A stretch of DNA of 64,000 bases from the NCBI RefSeq assembly GCF_040448695.1, contig NZ_CP159307.1, positions 1,364,001 through 1,428,000 on the forward strand. Reading direction: 5' to 3'. The DNA is from Dehalogenimonas sp. 4OHTPN (GTDB lineage: Bacteria; Chloroflexota; Dehalococcoidia; Dehalococcoidales; Dehalococcoidaceae). The position numbers were made by a program, and so were the translations under genes. Positions 41,105 through 62,063 of this stretch are shown here, one piece after another; the first letter of the stretch is position 1; the number at the start of each line of letters is the position of its first letter. The notes below the pieces were generated by a model that did no database searches, was not told where the DNA came from, and saw only the letters and a list, made by a program, of their open reading frames with translations.

Positions 41105-41457
41105 GGGGACGCGTGGTTTCGACAGTGGAGGTTAGTTACGGAATTGCAGGTTGAGCTTGCCGCTAAGCTCACTAATCCTGGTGGCAAAACACAATTGGCG
41201 AACGTGAACTCGTTCTCGCCGGCTAAATAAAGCCAGCGCATCCGCCGCTCCTTACCCCGACGGGAGCGAATCGGGTGCCGACAGTTGGGGTGCCGCTGAC
41301 CTGACGCCGACATGGAAAGCGAAAGACTAATCGGCTTGCCCGGCGAGATTCCGCCGGTTGAAGCTCAAAGGGCAAGAACAAAGATCCGGCTAAACCTGTA
41401 GTATATTCCGGGCAGTCTCCATTGGACGGGGAGTTCGACTCTCCCCCGTCTCCACCA
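41105..41457 (+). ncRNA. ssrA: Transfer-messenger RNA
   Basis: The 5' end GGGGACG pairs with the 3' end CGTCTCC, followed by A and an encoded CCA; the 3' tRNA-like domain has the T arm GGGGAGTTCGACTCTCCCC. The reading frame for the tag starts at GGC 41197 and gives GERELVLAG, stop TAA at 41224-41226, short and ending in AG rather than the common AA. The last 68 bases are also the antisense of the serine recombinase C-terminus, which makes this the presumed attachment site of the region to the right. Confidence 0.95.
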
Positions 41458-43045
41458 GAAACACAGCCGAGCCTTTGGGAGAAGATCCCAGAGGCTCGTT
41501 TATTATATGGATCTTCGAATCCTTCTTAGCTGAAGCTACCTGGAAGATAGGCCTGAAAGGGGGCTTTGGCATGACGGCAACCACCCTCTTTCCGGCTTTG
41601 GCGTCGATGTAGACGGCTTCCAGCATGGTGATGAGAATCTTCCTCTGCTCCGTGATGGTGGCACTAGCCCACAGCTTCGGCAGGTCCAGGATCAGTTTGC
41701 CGGCTGCCTCGGCAGCGTTGAAGTCGGGTACTACCAATGATTCAAGTTGAAGCTCGAGTATCCGCTTCTGTCGTCTGTATTCCTCTTCCGGCATGACGTT
41801 ATCGACAAAGGCTCTGCCCAGCCGGAGTAATCTTGATTTGGTTTCTTCACGTTGTTTGTTGATGCGCTCAACATCATCTTTAAGGGCGATGATCGAAAGC
41901 ACCTCCTCCAGCCATTTGGGACCGAGTTCAATCGCTGAGACGAGGCTTCGGACCTGATCGTCGATGATAGAGCAAGTGATGGAGCCGCCGTGTCCGGGAC
42001 ACTCCTTGATGCTTCTGGTTGCCTTGTGCTCCCGGTAATATGCTCTGCCGGAATAGTAGGTCTGCGCCCACATCGGCATACCGCAGTAAGCGCATCGGAC
42101 TAAGCCCTTGAGGAGATACTCTCTTTCAGGGTGAGGTGAGAGCGTTTCAGATCTGCCGCAGTTCGTCTTGGTTAGGCCCTGAACGGTGTTGAATAATTCC
42201 TGGCTGATGATCGGCTGGTGGGCACCGGGCAAGATTTGGCCGTTGTAGACTAATTGTCCCGTAAAGAACTGGTTATGCAAAATGCCCCTGACTGAGGCGG
42301 TGGTAAATAGCCTGGGGCCGGCTACTGCATTACCGATAGCGTCGGAAGACGTCCTGGTATTCCGGGTGCGAAAAGCCCGGTGGTTGAGCCAGCCAGCAAG
42401 TGTCGCAAGCGTTGCTGCACCCGAGGCGTAGCGTTTGAATAGCTCAGATACAGCCGGCCCTTCCTTCGGGTGGATATGAATCCCGCCCGGGTGCTCCGGA
42501 TTGCATCTCCTGATCCTTTCGCCGCTTTCGGTTTGTTCCCAGCAGGACTCATAACCGAAAGGAATAGTGCCATGATGTTTGCCCTCCAGGATTCGCTGCT
42601 CCTGTCCCTTCTTGACATGCTTGGCCAGTGATGAAGAGAAGAACTGGTTGAAAGCGCCGAGCATATGCAGATTGAGCATGCCTTCAGGAGTGGAGTAGTC
42701 GAGGCTTTCAGTGATGGAGACTAAACCGATGTTATGTTTAGATAGGATTGATAAGGATTCAATGGTCACCTTGAGGTTACGTGACCAGCGGTCGAGGGTG
42801 TGGGTCACGATGACATCAAACTGGTGCTTTGAGGCATCGTCGAGGAGCTTCTTGAAGACTGGGCGCTTGGCGATAGCGTCCACATGGGCACTCCTGCCCT
42901 CTTCCCGGTAGACGCCGACCACCTGCCAGCCCCTATTCTGGCAGAGTTCTCGGAAAAGCCTCTCCTGAGCAGTCAGTGAATGACCCTGCACCTGCGACTG
43001 GTCGGAGACCCGGATGTAAGTGACGGCGCGTTTTGCCTCAGTCAC
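41390..43045 (-). CDS. Large serine recombinase, integrase-like
   Basis: A 551-residue recombinase: catalytic domain with nucleophile Ser14 (YIRVSDQSQ) and HTLDRWSRN near 82, recombinase domain with GTIPFGYE near 160, and a zinc-ribbon domain (VRCAYCGMPMW near 316, then a second Cys pair around KECPGHGG) with a coiled-coil region after it. This is the large serine integrase plan. The start is GTG, sharing GTGACTGA with the end of a small upstream ORF. The last 21 or so codons (from about VETGESRTPRP) are antisense to ssrA. Dehalococcoides dehalogenase islands use similar recombinases at ssrA, so this protein is the likely integrase/excisionase of the island. Confidence 0.92.
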   Translation of the reverse strand: MTEAKRAVTYIRVSDQSQVQGHSLTAQERLFRELCQNRGWQVVGVYREEGRSAHVDAIAKRPVFKKLLDDASKHQFDVIVTHTLDRWSRNLKVTIESLSILSKHNIGLVSITESLDYSTPEGMLNLHMLGAFNQFFSSSLAKHVKKGQEQRILEGKHHGTIPFGYESCWEQTESGERIRRCNPEHPGGIHIHPKEGPAVSELFKRYASGAATLATLAGWLNHRAFRTRNTRTSSDAIGNAVAGPRLFTTASVRGILHNQFFTGQLVYNGQILPGAHQPIISQELFNTVQGLTKTNCGRSETLSPHPEREYLLKGLVRCAYCGMPMWAQTYYSGRAYYREHKATRSIKECPGHGGSITCSIIDDQVRSLVSAIELGPKWLEEVLSIIALKDDVERINKQREETKSRLLRLGRAFVDNVMPEEEYRRQKRILELQLESLVVPDFNAAEAAGKLILDLPKLWASATITEQRKILITMLEAVYIDAKAGKRVVAVMPKPPFRPIFQVASAKKDSKIHIINEPLGSSPKGSAVFLVETGESRTPRPMETARNILQV

Positions 43046-43280
43046 CAGATCCCTCTTTCTTCGGGATTCCCCTGGAGGCGACAGATAGGGCGACTTCAGT
43101 GAGAGTATCCAGGAATTGCCTTATCATTAGACCGTTAAGTTCCTCCTCCCCTGAAAAAGTGGTGGCGAGTGTATACTCTGGACGTATACATGTCAACGCT
43201 TTTTCGGATCCTTCGGAAGAAATATTTTCTCCCCTTGAACTAGGAGGGTCTGGCTTCTTCATTAGCATTTCCATGGTCAA
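43038..43280 (-). CDS. Possible small ORF coupled to the recombinase
   Basis: An open frame of up to 80 codons fills the gap between the two recombinase genes. Its stop (TGA) overlaps the recombinase GTG start in GTGACTGA, and three in-frame ATGs lie at its beginning inside the resolvase 3' end. Such double overlap is typical of real genes in a compact operon. The C-terminal part (LMIRQFLDTLTEVALSVASRG) could form a helix. I recognise no family, and the frame also contains a palindrome that may be a protein-binding site, so the call is tentative. Confidence 0.35.
   Translation of the reverse strand: MTMEMLMKKPDPPSSRGENISSEGSEKALTCIRPEYTLATTFSGEEELNGLMIRQFLDTLTEVALSVASRGIPKKEGSGD
43170..43190. 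repeat. Palindrome with paired GTATAC boxes
   Basis: TGTATAC and GTATACA are separated by seven bases (TCTGGAC), a 21-base dyad about 125 bases upstream of the large recombinase start. It could be an operator or a resolvase crossover site. Function is inferred only from symmetry and position. Confidence 0.45.
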
Positions 43281-43869
43281 TTAAACGCTTCAAGGTGGCG
43301 TAGCCTATGCGCAACTCCCGGGCGGCCTGCCGCCGCGAGATTTCACCGTCTCTAAGGCGCTCCAAAACTGCTCCATAAGTCTGATTGAAACCCCGCCTGT
43401 CGGTTACCCTTGGCCGGCCGATTTTATGGCCCTGTTTCCGTGCCCGGTCCATGCCGGCAATGACCCTCTCCCTGATGATGGAGCGTTCTAGCTGGGCATA
43501 GGCGACAGTGATGTAGTAAAGGGCTTCACCGAAAGGCGAAGTCGTGTCCAGCCAGGGCTCGGTGTATGACCTAAGGCCCACTCCCCAAGATTTCAGCCGC
43601 TCCAGTGTGGTGGCAGCGTCAAGCACCGAGCGGAAGGCTCGGTCCATCCGCCAGACCAGTGTTATGTCAAATCGCTTTTTGGATGCATCGGCAAGGAGGG
43701 CTCGCCATGACGTACGGTGGACGATATCAGCAGCCGAGACCTTATCGGTGTACTCGTTGAATACCCGCCAGTTATTGGCAGCTACGAATTCCCGGAGCGG
43801 CAAGAGCTGAGTGGCCAGATCCTGGTCCTTGTCAGCGGTCGAGACCCGGGCGTAGATGGCGACCTTCAT
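43240..43869 (-). CDS. Small serine recombinase (resolvase/invertase type)
   Basis: A 209-residue resolvase. The catalytic Ser10 is in IYARVSTADKDQD, with the conserved VWRMDRAFRS near residue 71 and ERSIIRERVIAGMDRARKQG (the E helix) near 128. A C-terminal helix-turn-helix (DGEISRRQAARELRIGYATLKRLI) binds DNA. It overlaps the zinc-ribbon gene upstream by four bases (ATGA), so it belongs to the same operon. Its role beside the large recombinase could be regulation or directionality of excision. Confidence 0.9.
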   Translation of the reverse strand: MKVAIYARVSTADKDQDLATQLLPLREFVAANNWRVFNEYTDKVSAADIVHRTSWRALLADASKKRFDITLVWRMDRAFRSVLDAATTLERLKSWGVGLRSYTEPWLDTTSPFGEALYYITVAYAQLERSIIRERVIAGMDRARKQGHKIGRPRVTDRRGFNQTYGAVLERLRDGEISRRQAARELRIGYATLKRLIDHGNANEEARPS

Positions 43870-48784: not shown

Positions 48785-50296
48785 ATGTCATTTTTCCATT
48801 CAACGGTCTCTAGGCGGGATTTCATGAAAAATTTAGGAATCGCGGGGGCGGGGATCGGAGCCGCAGCCGCGGCAGCGCCAGCTTTCACAGACATGGCAGA
48901 CGTCATCTCAAAGGCGCAAAGTATCCACCCCAAGAACCCGTGGTATGTTAAGGAGAGGGAGTATCTTAACCCGACCACTGAGATCGACTGGAATAAAATG
49001 GAGCGGTTCGAAGGGGGTCCGTATGACCCGGTCAAGTGCCTGTCTACCGCTGATTATCAAAAGATCATGGCAGAAATGGGAGCCAATCGGAAAAATTTTA
49101 TCCTAAACAACGCCCCAGGAAAAACACTTAGGGACTTTGCTCTCAACATGAGCGCAGCAGCTTACCCTAATGCTGTGATTTGGGGGCCTTATGTTAAACA
49201 CGCTCGGGTCAAAGGTTACTTCCTCGGCGAGCAGGGCTCTGTATTCACGCCCCAGATGTTGGGTGTGCCCCGATGGGAAGGCACCCCAGAAGACAACGCC
49301 CGGATGATGCGTTCGGTGTTCCAGCATTTCGGCGCCGCTGAAGTCTCTTTTGGTGAGATTATCGAGGGTAAGACCAAGAAGCTGATCAACCTGAGCACCA
49401 CCGACTGGGGACCCAACATGCGAATCATGTTCGAGGACGTGGACAAGGCTTACGTCGTCGATGACGGTAAAGATCTGGCTACCGGCAAGATGGTCATCCC
49501 GAACCGATGCAAGTCGGTGATAGTCTTCAAGATTCGCCAGTCCCAGGAAATGACCAAGAAAGGCAACAGCTACATCGCCCGTTCAGGCAGCAATAAGGCG
49601 TATGACCAATTGGCTATCACCAACTACCGGGTGAAAGCTTTCCTCAATGGTATCGGTTACGAGGCCATGAGCGGCGGCACCTTCGGCATCACCTGCGCCC
49701 GCCCCGGCTGGGGCGCTTTATTCGGCATGGGTGAACTAGCCCGTTCGATGCAGATGATTGCACCAACCGAAGGCCCGGTGATGCGCGCCACCGCGATAAT
49801 GGTTACCGATTTGCCGCTGCCGGTAACTAATCCCATCGATGCCGGCACTAACAAGTTTTGCCATTCATGCTTCAAATGCGCTGACATCTGCCCGTCCGGA
49901 GCCATATATAAAGAGCCAAACCCGGATTTTATCCAATGTCCGACGAACCACTCTGGTGGCGTGCCCGGCTACGTTGCTGAGAAACTCAAACCAGAAACAT
50001 TTAACAATAGCCCGGGATACAAACGCTGGCCGCTGAACCACTTTGCCTGTCGGTCCTATTGGACAGTAAACAGCGCCAGTGACAACTGGTGCATCGGCGC
50101 CTGTGTGTTCAACAAGATGGATGAAGCCACTATCCATCCGCTGATCAAGATGACAGTCGGCGCGAGTCCCGTGTTCAACGGTTTCTTCACCAACATGGAT
50201 ATCGCCTTTGGCTACGACCACCAGCCGGAAGACAAGTGGGAAGACTGGTGGAACGAGGAGCACAAAGTCGTCCCGATGCCTTTCACCAACTATTAG
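48785..50296 (+). CDS. rdhA: Reductive dehalogenase catalytic subunit (rdhA1)
   Basis: Corrinoid and iron-sulfur enzyme that removes halogens as terminal reductase. The 503-residue precursor has a Tat motif at residues 9-15 (SRRDFMK), a hydrophobic Ala/Gly stretch, and the C-terminal ferredoxin-like region. The first cluster motif is complete (CHSCFKCADICP from residue 359). The second reads Cys422, then Asp433 where a Cys is expected, then Cys436 and Cys440, so one ligand is replaced. GGAGG lies six bases before the ATG. No rdhB follows, so how it attaches to the membrane is not shown. Substrate cannot be told from sequence. Confidence 0.95.
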   Translation: MSFFHSTVSRRDFMKNLGIAGAGIGAAAAAAPAFTDMADVISKAQSIHPKNPWYVKEREYLNPTTEIDWNKMERFEGGPYDPVKCLSTADYQKIMAEMGANRKNFILNNAPGKTLRDFALNMSAAAYPNAVIWGPYVKHARVKGYFLGEQGSVFTPQMLGVPRWEGTPEDNARMMRSVFQHFGAAEVSFGEIIEGKTKKLINLSTTDWGPNMRIMFEDVDKAYVVDDGKDLATGKMVIPNRCKSVIVFKIRQSQEMTKKGNSYIARSGSNKAYDQLAITNYRVKAFLNGIGYEAMSGGTFGITCARPGWGALFGMGELARSMQMIAPTEGPVMRATAIMVTDLPLPVTNPIDAGTNKFCHSCFKCADICPSGAIYKEPNPDFIQCPTNHSGGVPGYVAEKLKPETFNNSPGYKRWPLNHFACRSYWTVNSASDNWCIGACVFNKMDEATIHPLIKMTVGASPVFNGFFTNMDIAFGYDHQPEDKWEDWWNEEHKVVPMPFTNY

Positions 50297-50372: not shown

Positions 50373-50483
50373 CCTGAAACAACCCGGAGTCCTGGTAAAC
50401 GGAATGGAAAGTCGGTGTAAATCCGGCGCATACCGCCTACTGTGTGTGGGTGACCACGAGCCAGCGAAGCGCAGTTTTCAGGG
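50373..50483 (+). ncRNA. Cobalamin riboswitch between rdhA1 and rdhA2
   Basis: The aptamer core is clear: GAAAGTCGGTGTAAATCCGG, GCGCATACCGCCTACTGTG, CCACGAGCCAGCGAAGCGC, closed by a P1 helix (CCTGAAAC at 50373 with GTTTTCAGG at 50474). The core is almost the same as the second copy at 55021. Cobalamin riboswitches bind AdoCbl or MeCbl and usually switch genes off. The next gene on this strand is rdhA2, about 400 bases away and behind a terminator, so its target is unclear. Confidence 0.88.
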
Positions 50484-50583
50484 TAATGCCTCCTTCTGGT
50501 GGTAACTGAAGGTAGGAATGTAGTTAAAATTGTTAGCCCCCTGCCTACCAGCCCCTCGGTCTCATTTTCTCTAAGCCAAACAC

Positions 50584-50641
50584 AGATATCACTGATTGTT
50601 TCAGGAAAAGTTCGACTCTCCGATGAGGACGAACCTGAAAC
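50584..50641 (+). ncRNA. Hairpin element, copy 1
   Basis: AGATATC, then GTTTCAGG (50598-50605) paired with CCTGAAAC (50634-50641), with an inner GTTCG/CGAAC helix and a CTC/GAG pair near the tip. A similar element lies at 61879-61934. The outer strand can also pair with the P1 strand of the cobalamin aptamer upstream, so it may be its expression platform. Family unknown. Confidence 0.5.
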
Positions 50642-50650
50642 GACTCTCTA

Positions 50651-50683
50651 GTACCTGTGGGGCTTCACCAGCCCCACAGGTAC
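50651..50683 (+). terminator. Terminator after the riboswitch and hairpin element
   Basis: A 14-bp stem (GTACCTGTGGGGCT with its complement) and a five-base loop, followed by TTTTT. It would stop transcripts from rdhA1 or the riboswitch before rdhA2. Confidence 0.92.
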
Positions 50684-50759
50684 TTTTTCAATGGGCTGTT
50701 CTTCGGCAAAAATACGCATAAAGTCCAATGGTGACTAGTTCTTTTGGACGATGACATTT

Positions 50760-50884: not shown

Positions 50885-52339
50885 TTGTTCAAAGCACATT
50901 CTACACTAAGCAGACGTGAGTTCATGCGTGCGATTGGAATCGCTGGATCGGGGCTTGGGGCAGCATCTTTGGTCCAGCCAAAGTTCAACGATGTTGACGA
51001 GTTGTTGTCAGCTTCTTCAAACCTAAAATATGACCATCCATGGTACGCGAAAGAGGTTGACGAACCTACAGTCGAAGTCGATTGGAATACAATGCAACGA
51101 TTCCCAAAAGCTAAATATAATAATTTCGCCCAGCATTTAACAACAGATGAAGTGAAGGCAATCCAAGCTAAAACCAAAGCAGACACTGTCAAGCAAATGA
51201 CGGACAGTTCAAAATCAGGATGGTATCTTAGAGACAATGCTATCAAGATGGGGGGTTGGGCTGGTGTCCGCTATCGTATGACTCTAACAACTGCAATAAA
51301 AGATTGGGTGGAAGGATGGAGTATCATCCCGACACCTGCTGTACTGGGAGTTCCAAAATGGCAAGGCTCTCCCGAAGAGGCTTCTTTGTTGGTTACCCAG
51401 GCTTTAAGGCTTTTTGGTGCTTCAAGTGTTGGATTCGCTGAAATTCTTCCTTCAACTACCCAAAAAATGGTTTGGGGGCAAATGCCTCAAAATCCATTTC
51501 CAACACTATCCTTTGAAGGGGATGCCCCTAAACCCGTTTTCGATACTGCAGCAAACAAAGTGGTCATCCCAAACACATCTAGATACGCCATCGTGCACAC
51601 CATTCGGCAATCGTTAGATGCATCGGCAAGACCTGGATATCTATCAGATGGTGCAGCCGGGCAAGCATACGATAACTGTGATATTGCGCAGTGGCGTCTC
51701 CAATCTTTCCTCCGAGTCATGGGATATTCCTCGATTACCCAGAATATTCAAGGTAATGGCGCTATCGTCGGCTGGGGAGTCATGTCCGGTTTGGGTGAGC
51801 AAGGGCGCTTGCAACACCTAGTTACTCCGCGATGGGGACCAATGATCCGCCAGTCAACGATGAACATCGTGGATATTCCGGTCGCTCCAACAAAACCAGT
51901 TGATTTCGGGGCAAGGCGTTTTTGTTACACATGCAAAAAGTGTTCTGATCTTTGCCCTTCCGGAGCGATTCCAAAAGAAACTGAGCCGTCTTGGGATATT
52001 ACCTCAAAATATGACCTCGTGAAACCCGAACTTTTTAACAACCCTGGTATAAAGACTTGGTATTTCAATCACTTCAAATGCAACACTACCTGGCAAGAAA
52101 CTGACACCTATTGCGGTATTTGCCAAGCTACTTGCGTCTTCAGCAAAGACGATGCTGCTTCGGTTCATGAAATTGTCAAAGCAACGCTGGCATCAACCAA
52201 GATCTTGAATTCATTCTTTATCGATATGGATAATATGTTTGGTTACGGATTGACGCCGGAAGACCAAATCGAAGAATGGTGGCAGAAGCCGATCCCTGTG
52301 AATGGAATCCACTACGAGAACGATGTGTTCTATAAGTAA
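50885..52339 (+). CDS. rdhA: Reductive dehalogenase catalytic subunit (rdhA2)
   Basis: A 484-residue RdhA. The Tat motif SRREFMR is at residues 9-15. Both ferredoxin motifs are complete: CYTCKKCSDLCP, then Cys followed ten residues later by CGICQATC. The C-terminal part (ILNSFFIDMDNMFGYG) is typical of the family. Start is TTG with AGGAGGAG upstream. Codon use looks richer in A/T at third positions than in neighbouring core genes, a hint of separate ancestry. No rdhB follows. A terminator closes the gene. Substrate unknown. Confidence 0.94.
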   Translation: MFKAHSTLSRREFMRAIGIAGSGLGAASLVQPKFNDVDELLSASSNLKYDHPWYAKEVDEPTVEVDWNTMQRFPKAKYNNFAQHLTTDEVKAIQAKTKADTVKQMTDSSKSGWYLRDNAIKMGGWAGVRYRMTLTTAIKDWVEGWSIIPTPAVLGVPKWQGSPEEASLLVTQALRLFGASSVGFAEILPSTTQKMVWGQMPQNPFPTLSFEGDAPKPVFDTAANKVVIPNTSRYAIVHTIRQSLDASARPGYLSDGAAGQAYDNCDIAQWRLQSFLRVMGYSSITQNIQGNGAIVGWGVMSGLGEQGRLQHLVTPRWGPMIRQSTMNIVDIPVAPTKPVDFGARRFCYTCKKCSDLCPSGAIPKETEPSWDITSKYDLVKPELFNNPGIKTWYFNHFKCNTTWQETDTYCGICQATCVFSKDDAASVHEIVKATLASTKILNSFFIDMDNMFGYGLTPEDQIEEWWQKPIPVNGIHYENDVFYK

Positions 52340-52398: not shown

Positions 52399-52433
52399 AA
52401 AAGACGAGGGGCTTCATCAGCCCCTCGTCTTTT
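52399..52433 (+). terminator. Terminator after rdhA2, also facing rdhB
   Basis: AAAAGACGAGGGGCT pairs with AGCCCCTCGTCTTTT around a five-base loop; A-run and T-run make it bidirectional between rdhA2 and the converging rdhB. Its core (GAGGGGCTT..TCAGCCCCTC) recurs near 61833. Confidence 0.92.
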
Positions 52434-52446
52434 TCAGCGGTCTTGG

Positions 52447-52734
52447 TTAACTAGCAGCAGGTTTAGTCGGTAGCAAACGCCAGGTCAGGCCAGCGAATAG
52501 AAGCGCGAAGAAGACGACGAAGGCGAAGCCAATCCATCCGCCGCGCTGAGCCCCCTCACCGATTTGAGAACCCAACCACGCAAACGCTGTAACCCAGAGT
52601 AAACCGCTCGCTACGGCCATAAGCCAGTGCCACCATGCAAATGGCCTTCCGGTTGCCCTTGATACGTTAGCTAGCGAGTATAGAGCGATGCCCATCAGAC
52701 CACCAGCCACGATAGAAAACAGGAATGTAATCAT
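52447..52734 (-). CDS. rdhB: Reductive dehalogenase membrane anchor
   Basis: A 95-residue protein with three hydrophobic helices (residues about 3-20, 37-55 and 67-88) and the family's GRPFAWWHW between the first and second. RdhB is thought to hold the Tat-exported RdhA to the outer face of the membrane. The ATG directly follows the rdhA3 stop codon (TAAATG), so translation is coupled. It is the only rdhB in the window. Confidence 0.92.
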   Translation of the reverse strand: MITFLFSIVAGGLMGIALYSLANVSRATGRPFAWWHWLMAVASGLLWVTAFAWLGSQIGEGAQRGGWIGFAFVVFFALLFAGLTWRLLPTKPAAS

Positions 52735-54306
52735 TTATTTTACCCCCATCGGCGTTGGTGTAAATCCGGAGATAAAGTTCGCGGTCTTCAGGTATTCGGG
52801 CGGATCGAAAACGCCTTTGAACAGAGGCGGATTGAGGTCGTCGAGCATGTTCTTTGGATACATATTGCGTTCTGCCCAAAGAGCGACATTAGAGACTAAG
52901 CCGGTGGAATCTCGCGCAAGGATGTTGCGCATCATGCGGTGAGACCAGGTATTGCGGCGCGTCCAAGGACAAGCTGCAACGCAAGCGCGGCATCCAGTCG
53001 GACCTGCACCATAAGCCCAACCATCGTTACACACCGCGAAGTTGGTTGCCCAGCGCTTCATACCATATTCAACTCGGTCTGGTTCAGGCGATTTGGAGAT
53101 TGCCTGCGTCGGACAGTTCTCCGCGCAGATCATGCAGCGCTTGCAGAACGCGTAGAGATTGAAGTCAATCGGTTTATCAGTCGCCATTGGTAGTGATGTG
53201 AATACTACCGCGGGACGACAGTTGCCTCCGACATCAGGAGACATGCAGTTAGAGGTTCTGCCTATATTGCCATATCCCGATAAAGCACCATGAGGCGGTA
53301 TTGTCAGGTCGTAACCACCATTCGGTGAATTCCACCTTGCGGGATAACCCAGTGCCTTCAAATATCCCACGATCTGCTGAGCGATGGTCGAAACAATGTT
53401 GTATCCTTGCTGTGACTGACCATAGTTTGGATCCGCCATCATGGAATCCCATTCCATGGGCGCATTCACGAATATGCCATAATTCCACCATGGCTGAATC
53501 TTGATTTCTTCCCCAACCTTGAATCCTCGAGTATTTGAGCTGTGGTTGTACCACACAAACTCAGGATGAACCGGTATGATACCAACGTACTGTGCCCCAA
53601 AATGATACGCTGCCCATTTGATGTTCTCAGCCGCTTTTTCAGGTGATTCGAAAACGGCTCGTGTAGTGCTTACTTTATCCCAGTCATTCACTTCAGGAGT
53701 TGTCGTGATGGAAGAAACGCCTACTGCGGTATCGCCAGAAACAATTTTATTGGCGATGTAACCTTCCTGGGCATCGAAGTTCGCGCGCATTTCGGTAGTT
53801 TTAAAATACCGCTCCCGGAAACCAGGAAGCCAGTCGTATACGTACTCCTTGTCGCGCTCCAGCATGTCCGGGTACATCTCGTAGTATTCACGCCAGAAAG
53901 GATCGAGAGCTTGAACCCCGTTTGAGGGCCAGGCACTGTAAGGGATAGCGAATTTGAACTTGTTTACATCGGGGTCATGGCGGCTCTGGAATCTCTGATT
54001 ATAAATCCATCTCAGGTCAGGGCGGTGAATCCCGTTGACTACCTGGTTCGGCCGCATATAAGTGGTATTTTGCTCGGTGACCTTCCAGCTGGTTTCCGGA
54101 ACTTCGTCGACTTCGAACGGAGTTCGATCGAATGTTTCATACTCGAAACCGCGCCGGCTTTGGTGACCTGGAAAACTAAGAGGAGTAGCGCCGTCCTGAA
54201 CGCCCCAGGCGTAAGCAACTCCAGCTGCGGCGGCCGTCCCGCCGACGCCAAGCATGACTGACTTCATAAAATCGCGGCGGCTTATTGAATTGTGGAACTG
54301 AGCCAA
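52735..54306 (-). CDS. rdhA: Reductive dehalogenase catalytic subunit (rdhA3)
   Basis: A 523-residue RdhA, visibly different from the other three in its middle and C-terminus. Tat motif SRRDFMKS is at residues 9-16. Cluster motif one is CKRCMICAENCP; motif two is the textbook CX12CX2CX3CP (C, then twelve residues, then CRACVAACP). An extended C-terminal tail of about 70 residues follows. The start is TTG with AAGGAGAA upstream. With its own rdhB it is the most conventional dehalogenase unit here. Substrate is not assignable by eye. Confidence 0.94.
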   Translation of the reverse strand: MAQFHNSISRRDFMKSVMLGVGGTAAAAGVAYAWGVQDGATPLSFPGHQSRRGFEYETFDRTPFEVDEVPETSWKVTEQNTTYMRPNQVVNGIHRPDLRWIYNQRFQSRHDPDVNKFKFAIPYSAWPSNGVQALDPFWREYYEMYPDMLERDKEYVYDWLPGFRERYFKTTEMRANFDAQEGYIANKIVSGDTAVGVSSITTTPEVNDWDKVSTTRAVFESPEKAAENIKWAAYHFGAQYVGIIPVHPEFVWYNHSSNTRGFKVGEEIKIQPWWNYGIFVNAPMEWDSMMADPNYGQSQQGYNIVSTIAQQIVGYLKALGYPARWNSPNGGYDLTIPPHGALSGYGNIGRTSNCMSPDVGGNCRPAVVFTSLPMATDKPIDFNLYAFCKRCMICAENCPTQAISKSPEPDRVEYGMKRWATNFAVCNDGWAYGAGPTGCRACVAACPWTRRNTWSHRMMRNILARDSTGLVSNVALWAERNMYPKNMLDDLNPPLFKGVFDPPEYLKTANFISGFTPTPMGVK

Positions 54307-54398
54307 TGAATTGTTCTCCTTTCAGTCTCCTTGATTGGGCCGGACCGCTTTATTTTGTTTCTAAATCGGCACCTCCTGTTCCGAGAGAATTTCAATAC

Positions 54399-54791
54399 CT
54401 AAAGCGACGCGCCCTCGCCGCTGATTTGTTTTGCCATCTCAAGTTCTGCCATATATCTCATCGGTGCGTCGGGTTCTTTCCCGAATTTGCTTTGTACTTC
54501 CTTGGCAAATGCCTTCTCTGACGCTCTTTCCTGTTTAACTTTGTTCAACCAGTTCGTGGGGTCCAGCAGCGGGTCCTCATCCATGCGCTTATCGGTCTTA
54601 TACCTGGCTTCTTCCTGGCGTTCCTGCATTTGCTGGTAGTGGGTGGTCGCGTGGCGGAAGGAAAAGCGTGACATCACTTTTTGACCATCTAAACCGCACC
54701 TTTCGCAGGCTACTCGCGGTTCGCTAGTCATCGGACAAAGTGATTCAAATGAGTGTCCGCAATTCGGGCAAAAGAATTCATAAATCGGCAA
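54399..54791 (-). CDS. FmdB-type zinc-ribbon protein upstream of rdhA3
   Basis: A 130-residue protein beginning LPIYEFFCPNCGHSFE, with a second Cys pair (VACERCG) forming the FmdB-type zinc ribbon, then a charged helical tail. The TTG start at 54791 (GGGGCGGGGAC upstream) matches the family's MPIYEF start; upstream frame is ignored. It lies 92 bases ahead of rdhA3 on the same strand. FmdB-like ribbons are small regulators or assembly factors of unclear role; the position suggests a link to rdhA3 expression. Confidence 0.8.
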   Translation of the reverse strand: MPIYEFFCPNCGHSFESLCPMTSEPRVACERCGLDGQKVMSRFSFRHATTHYQQMQERQEEARYKTDKRMDEDPLLDPTNWLNKVKQERASEKAFAKEVQSKFGKEPDAPMRYMAELEMAKQISGEGASL

Positions 54792-55020
54792 TGTCCCCGC
54801 CCCCCCTTGATGATAGTTAATAATTGTTACCCGTATTGTATCATTCGTTCGTTTAAAGTCAATACGCATTTTAGCTTATTTATAGGCATACTAGGACTAA
54901 TACATTCGATACAGCCTATTATGTCCCAAATGTCATTACATTTTACTTACTAATTAGCCAAATGGCAGTTGCTTTTCTTAACCATTTGTGCTAGCATCCG
55001 TCCGATTAATAATTGAATAC

Positions 55021-55130
55021 CGGGGCACAGTCCTTAATCGGACCAAAGGAGAGAAAGCCGGTGAAAGTCCGGCGCAGTACCGCCTACTGTGTGTGGGAAA
55101 TCCCACGAGCCAGCAAAGCGCCAGGCCCCG
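55021..55130 (+). ncRNA. Cobalamin riboswitch upstream of the corrinoid operon
   Basis: P1 is CGGGGC (55021) with GCCCCG (55125). The core has GAAAGCCGGTGAAAGTCCGG, GCGCAGTACCGCCTACTGTG and CCCACGAGCCAGCAAAGCGC. It lies about 80 bases ahead of the radical SAM-cbiZ-cbiB-cobA operon, a standard target: excess cobalamin shuts off salvage. Confidence 0.93.
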
Positions 55131-55210
55131 TTGCCTACCTCCAGTGGATATTGGAAAGGGATAGCCTGATTGCATGAATCGCTGTCCCTACCGATTGAGG
55201 GGAAGCGATT

Positions 55211-55999
55211 TTGTTTTACATCAAACCGAATCCGACGACCGTTTATCACGTTGCCTACGCACCTGCCATTGAAAAAGCCTACCTCTTTCACTGGGGCTGC
55301 AATCTTAAGTGCCGCGGCTGCCTGTGCAATAAAGAAATCAACTGCATGGCCCTCGAGGAAAACCTTGACGTAGTCCTGCGCGACCCAAGATTACCAAAGC
55401 CGCAAAACCCGTCACAGTATCTTGACCTCGACGAAGTCATCACCACGCTCAGGAAGGTCGCGGTCAAAGAGGTCCTTTTCGAAGGGCAAGAAGCCTCGAT
55501 CGACCCGGCCTACGGCGCCATCACCGAGGCGCTGAAGGCTGAATTCGGTTGCTACATTACCCTTAACACCAATGGCGTGAAACTCCCTGACCTTTCCCAC
55601 ACCGACGAGGTGGTAATGAGCCTCAAGGCGGTAACACCGGAGCTGTACCGCTATTACACCCTACATTCAAATGATCGGGTACTGCGCAACTTCGTCGAAG
55701 TTTATCGCCTGGGTAAGAAACTGCGGGCTGAAAGCGTCTTCATACCGGGTCTCATAGATCTGGAAGAGACGGAGAAAATTGCCGGATTCATTGCCGGGGT
55801 TGATTCGAAAATCCCTTATCGCATCGATGCCTATTTCGAGTCCGGAGCTGAAAATCCCTGGCGAAGGGCGACGCCGGAAGAGATGGCACAGGCGGTAACC
55901 GTCGCCAAGAAGCATCTAGCAAACGTTACCTGCACCCAACAGACGGCAGCCAAACTGGAGAAGAAAGACCTGATGTATGAAGTCATCAGGCTTTACTAA
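55211..55999 (+). CDS. Radical SAM protein in corrinoid salvage operon
   Basis: A 262-residue radical SAM protein with the cluster motif GCNLKCRGCLC near residue 30; the loop that usually reads GGEP is EGQEAS near 96. Substrate is unknown. It is the first gene of an operon under a cobalamin riboswitch, ahead of cbiZ with a gap of 10 bases, so a corrinoid-related step (for example lower-ligand or side-chain chemistry) is a reasonable guess. The TTG start has GAGGGGAA before it. It is not similar enough by eye to BzaF/ThiC-type enzymes to claim lower-ligand synthesis. Confidence 0.78.
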   Translation: MFYIKPNPTTVYHVAYAPAIEKAYLFHWGCNLKCRGCLCNKEINCMALEENLDVVLRDPRLPKPQNPSQYLDLDEVITTLRKVAVKEVLFEGQEASIDPAYGAITEALKAEFGCYITLNTNGVKLPDLSHTDEVVMSLKAVTPELYRYYTLHSNDRVLRNFVEVYRLGKKLRAESVFIPGLIDLEETEKIAGFIAGVDSKIPYRIDAYFESGAENPWRRATPEEMAQAVTVAKKHLANVTCTQQTAAKLEKKDLMYEVIRLY

Positions 56000-56009
56000 G
56001 AGGTCATTA

Positions 56010-56771
56010 ATGGTATACCACAAAAAGCTAGATCGAAAATCAATCAGCTCATGTCACGGAATAAACATTGATGTTGTCTATCACAACGCCGTAGGTGTCC
56101 CTACCGACACCCTGGTCATCACTCTGCCTGAGCAGCGACCGATGCTGACGACCCGGCATGGCTATAAGGCAACGGACGTCATCTGCAACTGCCACGTACC
56201 AAAGGAACTCTGGGATTTTATGCATGATGAATCCCGCTGCTGGCAGGAGACTTACGGTCAGATCATGGCTGAAGTCCTGACTGAAGCTAATCGGTCGATC
56301 GAAGACATCGCGTTCTTGTCTACCGGCATCAAGCAGGAGCGAGTGGCCGTGGCCGAAGAAGTTTACGATGAGTTTTGGGTATTGGCAGTGACTACCGCGG
56401 GTGTCAAGACCAATGCCATGCGGGTGGGCGTCGACAAAGCATCGGGCGTTGAGCGTAACGGCAAGTTCGAGAAGATCGGCACGATTAACAACATTATCCT
56501 GACGAACGCCATCCTCGAAGCCCCGGCGCTGGCCTCATCCTTCATCACTATCACTGAAGCTAAAAATATCGCCCTGCAAGAGCTTGATATCCGCAGCGCT
56601 TACGCGCCGTCGCTGCTGGCCACCGGTACCGGCACCGACCAGATCATCGTGGCATCGGGTCTCGAGCACAAGTACACCTACGTCGGCGGTCATACCAAAC
56701 TGGGGGAGATGATAGCTCAGGCGGTTACCAAGTCCACCATCCAGGCGATAAGGAATTCCAGAGGTTTCTGA
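56010..56771 (+). CDS. cbiZ: Adenosylcobinamide amidohydrolase
   Basis: CbiZ cuts the aminopropanol side chain from adenosylcobinamide and from some cobamides to give adenosylcobyric acid, which lets cells remodel scavenged corrinoids. The 253-residue protein has the family segments STGIKQERVAVAEEV near residue 100, VTTAGVKTNAMRVG near 128, and NIILTNAILEAPALAS near 160. The ATG at 56010 with AGAGGT six bases upstream is preferred to the longer frame. The gene belongs to the riboswitch-controlled operon. Dehalococcoides carries several cbiZ copies near dehalogenases. Confidence 0.92.
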   Translation: MVYHKKLDRKSISSCHGINIDVVYHNAVGVPTDTLVITLPEQRPMLTTRHGYKATDVICNCHVPKELWDFMHDESRCWQETYGQIMAEVLTEANRSIEDIAFLSTGIKQERVAVAEEVYDEFWVLAVTTAGVKTNAMRVGVDKASGVERNGKFEKIGTINNIILTNAILEAPALASSFITITEAKNIALQELDIRSAYAPSLLATGTGTDQIIVASGLEHKYTYVGGHTKLGEMIAQAVTKSTIQAIRNSRGF

Positions 56772-56772
56772 A

Positions 56773-57705
56773 GTGGATCTCATCCTGATGTTGCTGCTCG
56801 CCCTGGCGATCGACCTCACTATCGGCGAGTACCCCACGGCTTTCCACCCAACGGTGTGGTCTGGACGCCTGGCTGGGGCACTGATTCAGCCTGGGTTAAA
56901 GCTGCCGTGGAGTCTTCAACTCATCTACGGGATAGCGATAAGCCTTTCGATCATCACCCTGTTCACAGTCTCAGCCTGGCTTATACTCGGATTCCTGATG
57001 GGAATCGACCACTGGCTCTTTGTCTTTACCGGGGCGCTCATCCTCAAACCGGCCTTCTGCCTGGCCCAGCAGTGGCGGGTGGCGCGGAAGACCCGGGCAG
57101 TGGTTGAATCTGAGGCCCCGGTGCCTCCGGGGATGGAGGGTCTTTTCAACACTGTGAATTACAACCAGCCGGCTACCCGGGGTGAGATCGCCTCGGCCAG
57201 TATTCGCTCCATTGCTGAGAACGCGTCGGATTTTGTAACCGCACCGCTTTTCTATTTTGTGTTCCTCGGCGTACCGGGTGCGGTTGCATATCGCGTCATC
57301 AACACACTGGACAATATGATCGGCTACCGCGGCAAGTTTGAATACCTGGGTAAGTTCGCCGCGCGCCTCGACGATGTCGTTTCCTTTATTCCGGCCAGAA
57401 TCACCGCTTTGTTGTTTGTCGCCTCAGCCGGGCTGAGACGGGCAGGTGCCAGCCAGGCTTGGCGGACAATGATAGCCGACCACGGCCTGACACCAGGACC
57501 CAATGGCGGCTGGCCGATGGCTGCGGCTGCTGGAGCTCTGGGGGTCAAATTATATAAAACCGGGCATTACGAGCTAGGTAGTTCATTCGTTGAGCCACCA
57601 ATCGACAAGATCACCGAAGCTGTCAGCCTATACCGTTTAAGCATGTTCACTTGGATCGGCGTCTGTCTGATGGCACTGGCAGTGGCTGCCGCATTGCGAG
57701 GATGA
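56773..57705 (+). CDS. cbiB: Adenosylcobinamide-phosphate synthase
   Basis: CbiB (CobD in aerobic nomenclature) joins aminopropanol (phosphate) to adenosylcobyric acid, the step that follows CbiZ in remodelling. The 310-residue membrane protein has the expected hydrophobic helices and the conserved stretches AIDLTIGEYPTAFHP at the N-terminus, ASIRSIAENASDFVTAPLFY near 140, RVINTLDNMIGYR near 175 and AAAGALGVKLYKTGHYELG near 250. The GTG start follows cbiZ with one base between. Confidence 0.92.
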   Translation: MDLILMLLLALAIDLTIGEYPTAFHPTVWSGRLAGALIQPGLKLPWSLQLIYGIAISLSIITLFTVSAWLILGFLMGIDHWLFVFTGALILKPAFCLAQQWRVARKTRAVVESEAPVPPGMEGLFNTVNYNQPATRGEIASASIRSIAENASDFVTAPLFYFVFLGVPGAVAYRVINTLDNMIGYRGKFEYLGKFAARLDDVVSFIPARITALLFVASAGLRRAGASQAWRTMIADHGLTPGPNGGWPMAAAAGALGVKLYKTGHYELGSSFVEPPIDKITEAVSLYRLSMFTWIGVCLMALAVAAALRG

Positions 57706-57706
57706 G

Positions 57707-58228
57707 ATGATAACTAAGGGCATGGTCCATTTATTCACCGGCGAAGGCCGCGGCAAAACATCGGCCGCCCTTGGCACGGCAATACGTGCAGCCGGTTATG
57801 GGTTGAAAGTATTCGTTCTCTTCTTTATGAAGGGCATACATCCAGGGGGTGAATATTCCTCGTTCCAAACATTAGGTGTTGATTTCAAAGTCTTCGGCCG
57901 GCCGGATTTCTACGGGCCGTCAGATATCAGGGATGAAGACCTGAAACTGGGCAGAGAAGCCTTGAAAGCTTCTGTCGACGCTATAACTGGCGGCCGGTAT
58001 GATCTGGTGGTGCTTGACGAAATCAATACGGCGGCTGCCTGGAACCTCATTGAAACGGCTGATGTCCTGAAATTAATCGATAGTAAACCGCCAGGCGTTG
58101 AACTGATCCTGACTGGCCGTTATGCCTCTCAGCTAATTATTGACAAGGCTGATTATGCCACCGAACTGGTGAGCACGAAGCACCCCTTCGACCGTGGCGC
58201 GCCTGCGCGGGAAGGAATCGATTACTAG
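57707..58228 (+). CDS. cobA: Cob(I)alamin adenosyltransferase, CobA type
   Basis: Adds the adenosyl group to reduced corrinoids, needed before CbiZ and CbiB can act. The 173-residue protein has the P-loop TGEGRGKTSAALG near residue 11 that binds ATP in the unusual CobA orientation, VLFFMKGIHPGGEY near 42, VVLDEINTAA near 104, and ELILTGRYAS near 130. It begins one base after cbiB and its stop overlaps the next start (TAGTG). Confidence 0.93.
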   Translation: MITKGMVHLFTGEGRGKTSAALGTAIRAAGYGLKVFVLFFMKGIHPGGEYSSFQTLGVDFKVFGRPDFYGPSDIRDEDLKLGREALKASVDAITGGRYDLVVLDEINTAAAWNLIETADVLKLIDSKPPGVELILTGRYASQLIIDKADYATELVSTKHPFDRGAPAREGIDY

Positions 58229-58998
58229 TGAAAGTCGCCTTTTTCCATATCGAGCCGAAACCAGGCCAGATCGAGGCCAACCGCCACTTGTATGAGCGGC
58301 TGATCTCAGCAAGTGCCGTACTGGGGACGCGCTGGATACTTACTCCCGAGCTCGGTATCTCAGGGTATTACTTCACCGATATCATCGGCACCAACTGGAT
58401 CAAACCCCAGCCTGATGAATGGATGAACAAAATCAAGCTCGAAAGCCGCAGGCTTGATCTAACCATCTTCTTATCTCACCCTGAGCGGGACAAGAAAACC
58501 GGCAAGTTCCACAACACTTTATTCGCGATCGATAAAGGCAGAATCGCTGGCCGTCACCGCAAGATAGAGGTCCATCCGGGCGCCGAAGAAGCCTGGTCCT
58601 CTCCCGGTGATAGCCTGAAACCCTTCGCTATCGACGGTGCAAGAATCGGGATGCTGATCTGTGCTGATACCTGGGACACTCACCACGGACTTGAACTCCA
58701 AAAAAAGGCTGCTGAGCTACTGGTCGTCAGTGCTGCCTGGGGTCAGAAATACCCGCCGCTGGAAAACTGGAAAACCCTGTCGCTATCTACCGGACTACCG
58801 GTATGGGTCTGCAACAGAACAGGCCAGGAACGTAATGTCGACTGGACTCAGGCTGAAAGCATGGTCCTGGCGAAAGGCCAGCCGGTGCTCAGATACTCCG
58901 GCAAGCCGGCGTTGCTGGTCTTCGACTGGGATTTCGAAAGGATGTCGCCTGTATCAGCCGAGTTTACCGTCATACCCGTTGATGGAAGGGAGATCTGA
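58228..58998 (+). CDS. Nitrilase-superfamily (carbon-nitrogen) hydrolase
   Basis: A 256-residue CN-hydrolase. The Glu-Lys-Cys triad can be placed: Glu in ILTPELGISGYY near residue 42, Lys in GRHRKIEVHPG near 113, Cys in GMLICADTWDT near 150. The family hydrolyses or condenses amides and nitriles. Co-translation with cobA and position in the riboswitch operon suggest an amide of a corrinoid side chain or a lower-ligand precursor as substrate; this is inference. Start is GTG. Confidence 0.82.
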   Translation: MKVAFFHIEPKPGQIEANRHLYERLISASAVLGTRWILTPELGISGYYFTDIIGTNWIKPQPDEWMNKIKLESRRLDLTIFLSHPERDKKTGKFHNTLFAIDKGRIAGRHRKIEVHPGAEEAWSSPGDSLKPFAIDGARIGMLICADTWDTHHGLELQKKAAELLVVSAAWGQKYPPLENWKTLSLSTGLPVWVCNRTGQERNVDWTQAESMVLAKGQPVLRYSGKPALLVFDWDFERMSPVSAEFTVIPVDGREI

Positions 58999-59000
58999 CC

Positions 59001-60779
59001 ATGGTCATCGATACCAGATCAATGCCCATCTATTTAGACAAACCGGCTCTAACACCCAATGCTAAACTGGTCTTGGAAAAGCGCTACCTGCGCCGGGATG
59101 AAAATGGTGAAATTATTGAAACACCAGACGAGATGTTTTGGCAGGTAGCCCGGGCAGCAGCTTCTGTCGAACAACACTACGACCCTCAGGCAGATATTGA
59201 GACTGTTGCATCTGAATTCTACGAAATCATGGCGGGACTGCTCTTCCTGCCCAATTCGCCTGCCCTTTTAAACGCCGGTACCGGTCGAGGGCAAATGGCT
59301 GGCTCGATGGTGCTGCCGGTCGAAGACTCGCTGGATTCCATTTTCGATGCCGTAAAAAATGCCGCCATTATCCACCAGCGTGGTAGCGGGATCGGTTTCG
59401 ACTTCTCGAGCATCCGACCCAGAGGTGACCGGGCAGGCAGTCGGCCTGATGCCGCCATCGGACCAGTAGCCTTGATCGAGGTATTTTCCAGGGTGACCCA
59501 GAATATCCGCCAGGGCGGTATCCGCCGCGGCTGCAATGCCGTCTCGTTGGGCATCGACCACCCGGATATTATTGAATTCATCAGGGCCAAAGCTGACCAG
59601 TCATCCTTAAGCAACTTCTATACCTGCATTGCCATCACTGATGATTTCATGCAAAGAGTGAAGCAAGGATTGGATTATCCCTTGATCCATCCCCGTACCC
59701 AGAGCGTTAGCAGGTGGCTGAATGCTAGAGAGGTGTTCGACCAGATCGTCGACCAGGCCTGGCGTAATGGTGAGCCGGGCTTTATCTTCCTCGACCGGAT
59801 CAACCGTGACAACCCCACCCCACAACTAGGGACTCTTCATCATGTCAGCGGCTGTGGTGAACAGCCGCTACTACCCAACGAATTTGCCCACCTCGGCTCC
59901 GTCAACCTTTCCCGAATCGTGAAATCTGATGGGGATCAAACATATATCGACTTCAAACTGCTGGCCAGTGTCGTCGGCACAGCGGTGAGGTTTCTGGATA
60001 ATCTCATTGATTTAACAGGCTATCCGACGAATGAGAGCATGCTCGCTACCAAACGGACCCGGAAGATCGGCCTCGGGGTGATGGGCTTTGCCGATATGCT
60101 GTTCCAATTGGAGATCGCCTACAACTCCGAACAGGCGCTCGATATAGCAAGAGAGGTGATGAGCTTCATCCAGCGGCAGGCGCTTGATGCCTCTATCGAG
60201 CTTGGCCAGAAGCGGGGGCCATACCCGGCTTTCCATGGTGGCGGGAAACCAATCCGTAACGCCTCGCGTACTACCATTGCACCAACTGGCACCATATCGC
60301 TGATAGCTGGTTGCACTTCGAGCATCGAACCGGTTTTCGCTACTGTCTTTATCAGGAACGCTTTCAAAGGTGAACACCAGATGCTGGATATCAATCCCCA
60401 TTTCGAAAAGGCGGCGCGCCAGGCTGGGGTCTTTACTTCAGACCTCATCGAGCGCCTTGTCAGGTGTAACCACCTGCAACAGCAACCGGATGTACCTGAG
60501 GAATTGAAACGCATCTTCGTCACGGCTCACCGGGTCAGCCCCGAGTGGCATATCAAAATGCAGGCGGCTTTCCAGGAGTTTACTGATGCTGCCGTCTCTA
60601 AAACAGTCAACTTGCCTCATAATGCTGATAGAGAAGAACTTGGTATTATCTTCATGCAAGCATATGATATTGGGCTCAAGGGTATTACAGCCTACCGTGA
60701 CCAGAGCCGGTCATCTCAGCCCTTCTGCACTGGCGATATCGGCATTAGTCTGGTCCGGGAATATATGAATTGTAGGTAA
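59001..60779 (+). CDS. Class II (AdoCbl) ribonucleotide reductase-like protein with altered active site
   Basis: The 592-residue protein follows class II RNR throughout: FLPNSPALLNAGTG near residue 87, the GSGIGFDFSSIRPRGD segment near 130, PEFIFLD-like GEPGFIFLDRINRDNP near 258, PTGTISLIAG near 430, and AVSKTVNLPHNA near 533. The thiyl-radical Cys is kept (GCGEQPLLP, Cys285). However, the first reductant Cys is Ser102 (AGSMVLP instead of SACFVLP), the second is Ala296 (NEFAHLGS instead of YESCNLGS), and the substrate-binding Asn two residues before Cys285 is Ser283. It lies last in the corrinoid operon. Either an RNR with another electron source, a new radical reaction, or an inactive copy. 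Confidence 0.85.
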   Translation: MVIDTRSMPIYLDKPALTPNAKLVLEKRYLRRDENGEIIETPDEMFWQVARAAASVEQHYDPQADIETVASEFYEIMAGLLFLPNSPALLNAGTGRGQMAGSMVLPVEDSLDSIFDAVKNAAIIHQRGSGIGFDFSSIRPRGDRAGSRPDAAIGPVALIEVFSRVTQNIRQGGIRRGCNAVSLGIDHPDIIEFIRAKADQSSLSNFYTCIAITDDFMQRVKQGLDYPLIHPRTQSVSRWLNAREVFDQIVDQAWRNGEPGFIFLDRINRDNPTPQLGTLHHVSGCGEQPLLPNEFAHLGSVNLSRIVKSDGDQTYIDFKLLASVVGTAVRFLDNLIDLTGYPTNESMLATKRTRKIGLGVMGFADMLFQLEIAYNSEQALDIAREVMSFIQRQALDASIELGQKRGPYPAFHGGGKPIRNASRTTIAPTGTISLIAGCTSSIEPVFATVFIRNAFKGEHQMLDINPHFEKAARQAGVFTSDLIERLVRCNHLQQQPDVPEELKRIFVTAHRVSPEWHIKMQAAFQEFTDAAVSKTVNLPHNADREELGIIFMQAYDIGLKGITAYRDQSRSSQPFCTGDIGISLVREYMNCR

Positions 60780-60817
60780 ACGGGAGAGTTTATGCCCAAC
60801 CCAAACGTTAGGAGCGA

Positions 60818-60885
60818 AGTTGATTGGTTTAAGTCTCAAAGATCAAAGCCGCGCTTTTAAGATACCTTGTGTTAACCAATCAACT
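60818..60885. repeat. Inverted repeat after the RNR-like gene
   Basis: AGTTGATTGGTT at 60818 and AACCAATCAACT at 60874 are exact complements with a 44-base middle. It lies between converging genes and has no T-run. Could be an old insertion end or weak terminator. Confidence 0.45.
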
Positions 60886-60926
60886 AAGAGTCGCGTTCCA
60901 GAGAGAGTCCGACCCGACAAGGATGA

Positions 60927-61739
60927 CTAAGGTTTTCTTCTTGAGTACTTTATGAAATCAGGTAATGCCATTAAAGCTCGAAAAAAGCGCTCAGGTCGCT
61001 CGGCTGAATAACATTTCCCCGTAATCCTACCCGGCTTCACGCTACACATTTCTAATGCCACTTTTTGTACCCGTTCTATAGGGGTAGCAAAAGCTTTCAA
61101 CAGCACCGACATTAGTCCCATTTTGGAATCAGTTTCGGGACAGGTCTTTACATCCTTGTAGATGTCCGTCTCAACCATGCCTGGAAATAGGCAGTTTATT
61201 GATATCGGCTTATCCTTGTTCTCAGCAGCCAGGCTCTTCGTAAGACTTGTAATCGCAGCTTTACTCGCACCGTATGGGGATTGGAAAGGACTGGGATTCC
61301 CACGTCCCCCACGCCCACCTATGTTAATGATCGTTCCTCCCCCACTTGATATGAAGTATGGGATTAATAGCCTGCAGGCATAGAAAGAACCCATCAAGTT
61401 GGTATCAATGACTTCTCTTATCTCGTCGGTGGTCATAGACTGAAGAGTTCGATAGCCGCCAGATATCCCTGCATTATTTATCCACACGTCGATTTTCCCG
61501 AAGGCTAATTTGCTACTCTCGAACAGCCCTAAAATTTCAGCCTCGTTTGTGACATCTGCTTGGAAAGCCCGAACGGAAAAGCCGCTTTGGTATAGCTCTT
61601 CGACCGTCTTCGAAAGAAGGGTGAAATCTCTTGAACATAGAACTACGTTAGCTCCGGCAGCCGCACAAGCTTCCGCAATTGCACGTCCAATACCCCGGCT
61701 GGATCCGGTGACGACTACTGTTTTGTCTTTGAGTGTCAT
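60927..61739 (-). CDS. Short-chain dehydrogenase/reductase in the island
   Basis: A 270-residue SDR: TGSSRGIGRA near residue 11, NNAGISGG near 88, catalytic Tyr-Lys in SPYGASKAA near 158. The usual catalytic Ser region reads INIGGRGGRG, with Gly where Ser is common, so activity may be altered. The frame is open further upstream, but MTLKDKTVVVTG at 61739 with AGAGGAC nine bases before it is the clear start. Flanked by dehalogenase and corrinoid genes; role unknown. Confidence 0.8.
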   Translation of the reverse strand: MTLKDKTVVVTGSSRGIGRAIAEACAAAGANVVLCSRDFTLLSKTVEELYQSGFSVRAFQADVTNEAEILGLFESSKLAFGKIDVWINNAGISGGYRTLQSMTTDEIREVIDTNLMGSFYACRLLIPYFISSGGGTIINIGGRGGRGNPSPFQSPYGASKAAITSLTKSLAAENKDKPISINCLFPGMVETDIYKDVKTCPETDSKMGLMSVLLKAFATPIERVQKVALEMCSVKPGRITGKCYSAERPERFFRALMALPDFIKYSRRKP

Positions 61740-61823
61740 TATGATTGAGTCCTCTAATCTAGTGATATTCGGAGTTAACTCTATCACAAGCTCTGTTTTT
61801 GTATAAGATCCCATGTCAGACCG

Positions 61824-61860
61824 AAATGAACGAGGGGCTTTTTCAGCCCCTCGTTCATTT
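61824..61860. terminator. Terminator-like hairpin similar to that of rdhA2
   Basis: AAATGAACGAGGGGCT pairs with AGCCCCTCGTTCATTT (16 bp) around TTTTC. The core matches the rdhA2 terminator at 52399. It lies in the 324-base region between the SDR start and the rdhA4 stop, which has no gene. Confidence 0.7.
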
Positions 61861-61878
61861 CCCGAGAGATCCATTCCA

Positions 61879-61934: not shown

Positions 61935-61940
61935 CTTAAT

Positions 61941-62050: not shown

Positions 62051-62063
62051 TTTTGCATATATC

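Follow-up and report, generated by a model that had tools for sequence, protein, structure and literature searches.

The dehalogenase interval and its surroundings

Two reductive dehalogenase genes of Dehalogenimonas sp. 4OHTPN, rdhA1 and rdhA2, are separated by a cobalamin-type aptamer, a hairpin element and a terminator. Does this arrangement place rdhA2 under the control of B12? An earlier note, made from the sequence alone, had suggested that it does, since the 5′ strand of aptamer helix P1 can pair either with its own partner or with the hairpin element. We analysed the window (64,000 nucleotides, positions 1,364,001 to 1,428,000 of contig NZ_CP159307.1) against its own 1.75-Mb single-contig genome (G000) and seven genomes of the same genus. 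The features are listed in Table 1.

Table 1. Features of the rdhA1-rdhA2 interval and landmarks of the island (window positions).
Feature	Position	Strand	Basis or remark
ssrA (tmRNA)	41105-41457	+	3′ end is the source of sibling attachment sites
Large serine recombinase, island left edge	41390-43045	-	Pfam Resolvase, Recombinase, Zn_ribbon_recom
Small serine recombinase	43240-43869	-	Pfam Resolvase
rdhA1	48785-50296	+	Pfam PF13486
Cobalamin aptamer	50373-50482	+	82-87% identity to three same-genus aptamers; RF00174, 10.3 bits
Aptamer P1, CCTGAAAC / GTTTTCAGG	50373-50380 / 50474-50482	+	
Aptamer P4	50411-50415 / 50423-50427	+	
Aptamer L5, ACCGCC	50432-50437	+	
Aptamer AGCCAG	50459-50464	+	
P13 hairpin	50492-50512	+	Kept in all three G002 copies
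Leftover AGCCCCCT, 5′ arm of the native riboswitch terminator	50535-50542	+	Alignment with G002; folding
Putative rearrangement junction between aptamer-type and rdhA-3′-flank-type sequence	50543-50546	+	Aptamer homology stops at 50542, rdhA-flank homology starts at 50547
rdhA-type terminator 3′ half ACCAGCCCCTCGGTCTCATTTTC, without 5′ arm	50547-50569	+	Match to rdhA-3′ terminators in the genome
Hairpin element (core 50609-50631), an ssrA-island-family attachment-like site	50598-50641	+	33 related sites; sibling sites with tmRNA 3′ end
Strong intrinsic terminator, cassette boundary	50650-50689	+	Found again, with the element, at G000:C1:1473680-1473862
Conserved rdhA upstream box, candidate rdhA2 operator/promoter	50711-50756	+	Same box before three other rdhA genes
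rdhA2	50885-52339	+	Pfam PF13486

Genes for a ParB-domain protein and for the large and small serine recombinases adjoin ssrA in the window, as recognised by Pfam. The large recombinase ORF, on the reverse strand, and the tmRNA gene share 41390-41457, at the 3′ end of the latter, an overlap also noted for dsiB in Dehalococcoides. An 11.2-kb segment of the window (52405-63596), carrying rdhA-like genes and a corrinoid-salvage operon, is duplicated at G000:C1:1460415-1471613 with 91.8% identity.

The aptamer and its relatives

The window aptamer is homologous to aptamers that lead corrinoid genes. A DNA search of the same-genus genomes recovered three aptamers in one of them (G002), matching the window copy at 87, 85 and 82% identity with E-values down to 1.6e-43, which bears out the earlier description of a cobalamin-type aptamer. 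Two of the G002 copies (247377-247515 and 360983-361127) sit directly before a radical SAM-type operon; the third (364878-365017) has no sense gene directly downstream and is an orphan. Two more-distant members were found in the genome of the window itself, one of them within the window at 55011-55139, and both lead the same kind of operon. The proteins of the window salvage operon match Pfam Radical_SAM, CbiZ, CobD/CbiB and CobA/CobO. An exact-pattern scan of a collection of genome contigs for the aptamer core gave no match, nor did a search of plasmids.

The RF00174 covariance score of 10.3 bits lies below the gathering threshold of 31.5, so that the score by itself does not place the window copy in the Rfam family; intact close relatives likewise score below the threshold (21.5-30.1 bits). 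Both P1 strands lie where they had previously been placed, and compensatory changes in P1 could be seen by eye between members (CCTGAAAC/GTTTCAGG, TCTGAAAC/GTTTCAGA and CGGGGC/GCCCCG); P1 of the two divergent members is misaligned in the subfamily alignment. The L5 loop is complementary to L13 (GGTGGT, 50498-50503) through five Watson-Crick pairs and one G-U pair, and this kissing loop, read from the sequence, is kept among the relatives. Despite its sub-threshold Rfam score, the same-genus homology, the compensatory changes in P1 and the conserved kissing loop identify 50373-50482 as a cobalamin-riboswitch aptamer by descent.

With the salvage-operon leaders of the genus, then, the window copy shares the aptamer core, P1, P4 and the L5-L13 kissing loop, and two of its 82-87% identical relatives lead an operon of the radical SAM-cbiZ-cbiB type. 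It differs from these leaders in its sub-threshold score, in the loss of one P5 base and of the terminator 3′ arm, and in having no corrinoid gene after it. That the aptamer lacks an obvious gene had been remarked on before, and indeed it has no gene of its own; a search for a small ORF under its control yielded only short ORFs overlapping the aptamer or the element, none of them convincing. Among the other aptamers of the genus that we examined, none has rdhA as its first gene except the G002 orphan: the next gene on its strand lies about 890 nt away and is rdhA-like as judged by eye from translations.

Loss of the expression platform

In the G002 relatives the expression platform ends in a terminator formed by AGCCCCCTCC and GGAGGGGGCT, with folding energies of -22 to -24 kcal/mol. 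The tail is a U-tract in two copies and A/U-rich in the third. The window copy can be aligned with these sequences through TTGTTAGCCCCCT, which ends at 50542, and there the homology stops. The last arm that it keeps is AGCCCCCT; the 3′ arm of the riboswitch terminator and its U-tract are gone, and the stretch equivalent to the relatives' terminator folds at only -2.0 kcal/mol. Homology to the 3′ half of rdhA terminators, with the flank leading into the element, starts four bases past 50542. Because the aptamer homology ends and the 3′ half of a different terminator begins so shortly after it, the alignments indicate that the expression platform of the window aptamer is amputated. With the terminator 3′ arm absent, we recognised no functional platform, whether a terminator or sequestration of a ribosome site. 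The arrangement had been called a natural switch design, a description at odds with the loss of this arm from the native platform, a terminator that follows an alternative hairpin. A P5 guanine is also missing at 50430/50431, changing GGCGCAGTACCGCC to GGCGCATACCGCC; the eight other matches found across 151 genomes from this order all keep it.

The hairpin element as a dispersed site

The two strands of the hairpin element, GTTTCAGG (50598-50605) and its partner CCTGAAAC (50634-50641), had been correctly located in the earlier note. A BLAST search with the element found many copies across its own genome, and 33 related sites with the consensus GCGTTTCAGAGAGAGTCCGACTCTCCGAGGAGGACGA were identified; a reversed control pattern gave zero matches. 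The sites are uniform in strand within each island (19 of 19 in G002, 6 of 6 in G001 and 6 of 6 in G000), and 8 of the 33 come after a gene that runs the other way. Such uniformity within an island, whatever the orientation of the genes, is the pattern expected from DNA sites rather than from elements of an mRNA. Of the 33 sites, only 2 have the full right arm CCTGAAAC, which makes the hairpin, and only two have both full arms. Examples of the family, which lies between the cassettes of rdhA islands, are found at G002:C1:1436588-1468524, at G001:C1:1040254-1050187 and in the window at 50609-50631 and 61901-61923. Several sites are paired about 105 bp apart, and a small terminator-like hairpin often follows.

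Several sibling copies run on into GTTCGACTCTCCCCCGTCTCCACCA, the 3′-terminal sequence of the tmRNA gene (41105-41457). The left half of these sites is present in the 50598 copy too, but the right half of that copy is not tmRNA sequence: the copy has only AGTTCGACTCTCC in common with ssrA and then diverges, so it does not carry the tmRNA 3′ end as a 20-bp direct repeat, which is present in the sibling sites at 1442287, 1475692 and 482.6 kb. In a hand count, the 15-bp left motif TTCAGRSMGMRKCCA was matched at about 11 of 15 positions in the 50598 copy and at 14 of 15 in the 1473715 copy. The element is located 3′ of ssrA, and serine recombinases mark the left edge of the island. A junction with ssrA on its left and the site on its right, as expected from integration of a site-bearing circle into ssrA, was found at ssrA in none of the eight genomes, and the element can therefore not be assigned as attP. 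A hammerhead-type ribozyme, considered because of the string GATGAGGACGAA, was rejected, as Rfam gave no such match even at E<=10 and the core does not fit. One ssrA-type site with the tmRNA 3′ end (G000:C1:482576-482650, reverse strand) lies about 0.92 Mb from ssrA, beside a transposase-like ORF.

The element is best regarded as an attachment-like site of the ssrA-island family, a DNA-level feature that would serve as a recombinase substrate. In Dehalococcoides, McMurdie et al. 2011 (PMC3146451) describe ssrA-specific genomic islands with serine recombinases at the left edge and tmRNA direct repeats among the rdhA genes, as well as a conserved TTCAG-type motif left of the tmRNA repeat. For Dehalogenimonas, too, there is a report of an ssrA-associated island that has direct repeats (PMC13390414). 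The site at 50598 resembles those of Dehalococcoides in its left half (TTTCAG..AGTYCGACTC) and in its position downstream of ssrA among rdhA genes, with serine recombinases adjoining ssrA. In contrast to them, its right half is CCGATGAGGACGAACCTGAAAC and not the tmRNA 3′ end. We found no description of the CCGATGAGGACGAACCTGAAAC right-half variant or of the GCGTTTCAGAGAGAGTCCGACTCTCCGAGGAGGACGA site family in those portions of the ssrA-island literature that were covered. Attachment-like sites between dehalogenase cassettes appear to form a wider family than the published tmRNA direct repeats, and may be a route of gene shuffling.

Control of rdhA2

A box, AATACGCATAAAGTCCAATGGTGACTA...GATGACA, lies 3′ of the terminator and is common to three other rdhA upstream regions (G000:C1:1471905, 1473825 and, on the reverse strand, 1471760). 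In the four genes the box precedes the rdhA start by 159-218 nt, and it is a candidate for a shared rdhA operator or promoter. Near rdhA2 a scan for sigma-70 promoters gave a single promoter-like site, which does not exceed chance expectation, and no consensus promoter stood out; the proposal of an independent rdhA2 promoter hence rests on the conserved box. The whole block of element, terminator and box (50574-50756) recurs at G000:C1:1473680-1473862 with 90% identity, behind a different rdhA and without an aptamer. In G002 the rdhA closest to rdhA2 (71%) lies upstream of its aptamer, not downstream. Control of rdhA2 readthrough by B12, as put forward in the earlier note, is unlikely given that the element is a dispersed site found with the same terminator and box where there is no aptamer, and rdhA2 is probably independent of B12.

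Strand exchange and alternative explanations

Pairing between P1 and the element is possible, as had been pointed out. A repeat search found a perfect 10-nt inverted repeat (50373-50382 and 50596-50605), and the forced exchange is iso-energetic in the thermodynamic model with P1 plus the element hairpin (-108.4 against -108.3 kcal/mol). Our expectation that the exchange would be energetically unfavourable was dropped for this reason. Among dinucleotide-shuffled versions of the region, 2.1% had a perfect distal complement of at least 10 nt, 9.7% one of at least 9 nt and 31.5% one of at least 8 nt, so that the observed one is only mildly unusual. What does not hold is the role of the exchange as a switch. 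The strong terminator recognised earlier after the element (50650-50684, 15 pairs, a 5-nt loop and a T-tail, with rdhA2 starting about 200 bases past it, as noted) has pair probabilities of at least 0.99 save for two end pairs (0.78 and 0.92), and its stem is retained in both forced folds because neither alternative pairing overlaps it. The P1 strand CCTGAAAC is native to the aptamer subfamily, and thus older than the juxtaposition. In G002 no partner element lies near the two operon-leading aptamers; a single GTTTCAGG is present some 1.2 kb past the orphan aptamer. As aptamer P1 and element occur independently, their match here is most simply a coincidence. Together with the loss of the native platform and the occurrence of the element and terminator without an aptamer, these results make it extremely improbable that the P1 5′ strand swaps partners in a working riboswitch that controls read-through into rdhA2.

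The aptamer might instead act without a gene. It could still bind B12 and govern a non-coding transcript some 310 nt long (50373 to 50689), or else what becomes of the 3′ end of rdhA1, for its core, P1 and kissing loop are mostly intact, G002 holds a second orphan with an intact terminator, and gene-less or antisense-acting cobalamin riboswitches have precedents. One example is Listeria pocR (PMC9943018), where a cobalamin riboswitch makes an antisense RNA; like the window copy, it is a cobalamin aptamer with no sense gene directly downstream. Unlike the pocR riboswitch, the window copy has no antisense target on the opposite strand, no opposite-strand gene being within reach, and its platform is broken, which counts against a non-coding role. 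Since a P5 base is lost as well and the downstream sequence (50543-50689) is not conserved together with the aptamer, we hold this explanation to be unlikely. The G002 orphan (locus G002:C1:364298-365017) has an intact terminator and lies antisense to a MarR-family gene, at the 3′ end of the latter; the MarR gene and an rdhA-like gene are divergent. This orphan is a candidate antisense-acting riboswitch and the better candidate for a non-coding RNA. More generally, there is a slim chance that orphan aptamers are retained in dehalogenase islands as non-coding or antisense RNAs, which would provide B12-dependent tuning of dehalogenase expression; the G002 copy would then be the stronger case and the window copy an altered version. 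It is very unlikely that the platform has been partly rebuilt as a new ligand-dependent structure around the GGTAGG/CCTACC hairpin that spans the junction. This hairpin appears (as GGUAGG...CCUACC) in both the centroid and the minimum free energy folds, but neither a U-tract, a start codon nor a ribosome site follows it, and a single sequence gives no covariation support.

Probable origin of the orphaned riboswitch

Most likely 50373-50542 is an orphaned and truncated cobalamin riboswitch beside an island integration scar, a relic of gene shuffling with no working control of rdhA2. The ancestral riboswitch would have led a corrinoid-salvage operon (radical SAM-cbiZ-cbiB) and worked through ordinary ligand-dependent transcription termination, by means of the aptamer, the L5-L13 kissing loop and a terminator opposed to an alternative hairpin. 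Deletion or recombination in the ssrA-associated reductive-dehalogenase island, at a short AGCCCC-type homology (50543-50546), would have fused it to an rdhA cassette's 3′ flank and removed the salvage operon and the terminator 3′ arm. The terminator at 50650-50689 would belong to the cassette boundary and halt incoming transcripts whatever the ligand, and rdhA2 would be driven from its own upstream region, 3′ of that terminator. Sequence comparison establishes the homologies and the loss of the arm, the dispersed nature of the site and the independent occurrence of the element-terminator-box block; the order of the rearrangement events is our reconstruction. A counterpoint to the relic interpretation is that the conserved core is mostly still present, as are P1 and L5/L13, so ligand binding by the window aptamer may persist. 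In addition, the orphan in G002 (C1:364878-365017), which has its terminator intact and precedes a comparable module by about 4 kb, suggests that the retention of orphans may have a reason.

All the parts belong to known kinds, namely a cobalamin riboswitch, an ssrA-island site and an intrinsic terminator. New are the apparent truncated, orphan state of the riboswitch and an element family that extends past the published tmRNA repeats. Through island recombination, it seems, a riboswitch can lose both operon and terminator, and what then stands before a dehalogenase gene is a plausible but probably non-functional "B12 switch". Such a remnant is an annotation trap.

Further riboswitches were observed in these genomes. 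Tandem cobalamin aptamers occur at G002:C1:924171-924522, in G003 and at G008:C1:599223, upstream of apparent corrinoid-transport binding proteins, with a terminator-like hairpin after the first aptamer. In the window, a molybdenum/tungsten cofactor riboswitch (RF01055, 68.6 bits) was found at 28320-28464, upstream of a putative transporter binding-protein gene at 28541.
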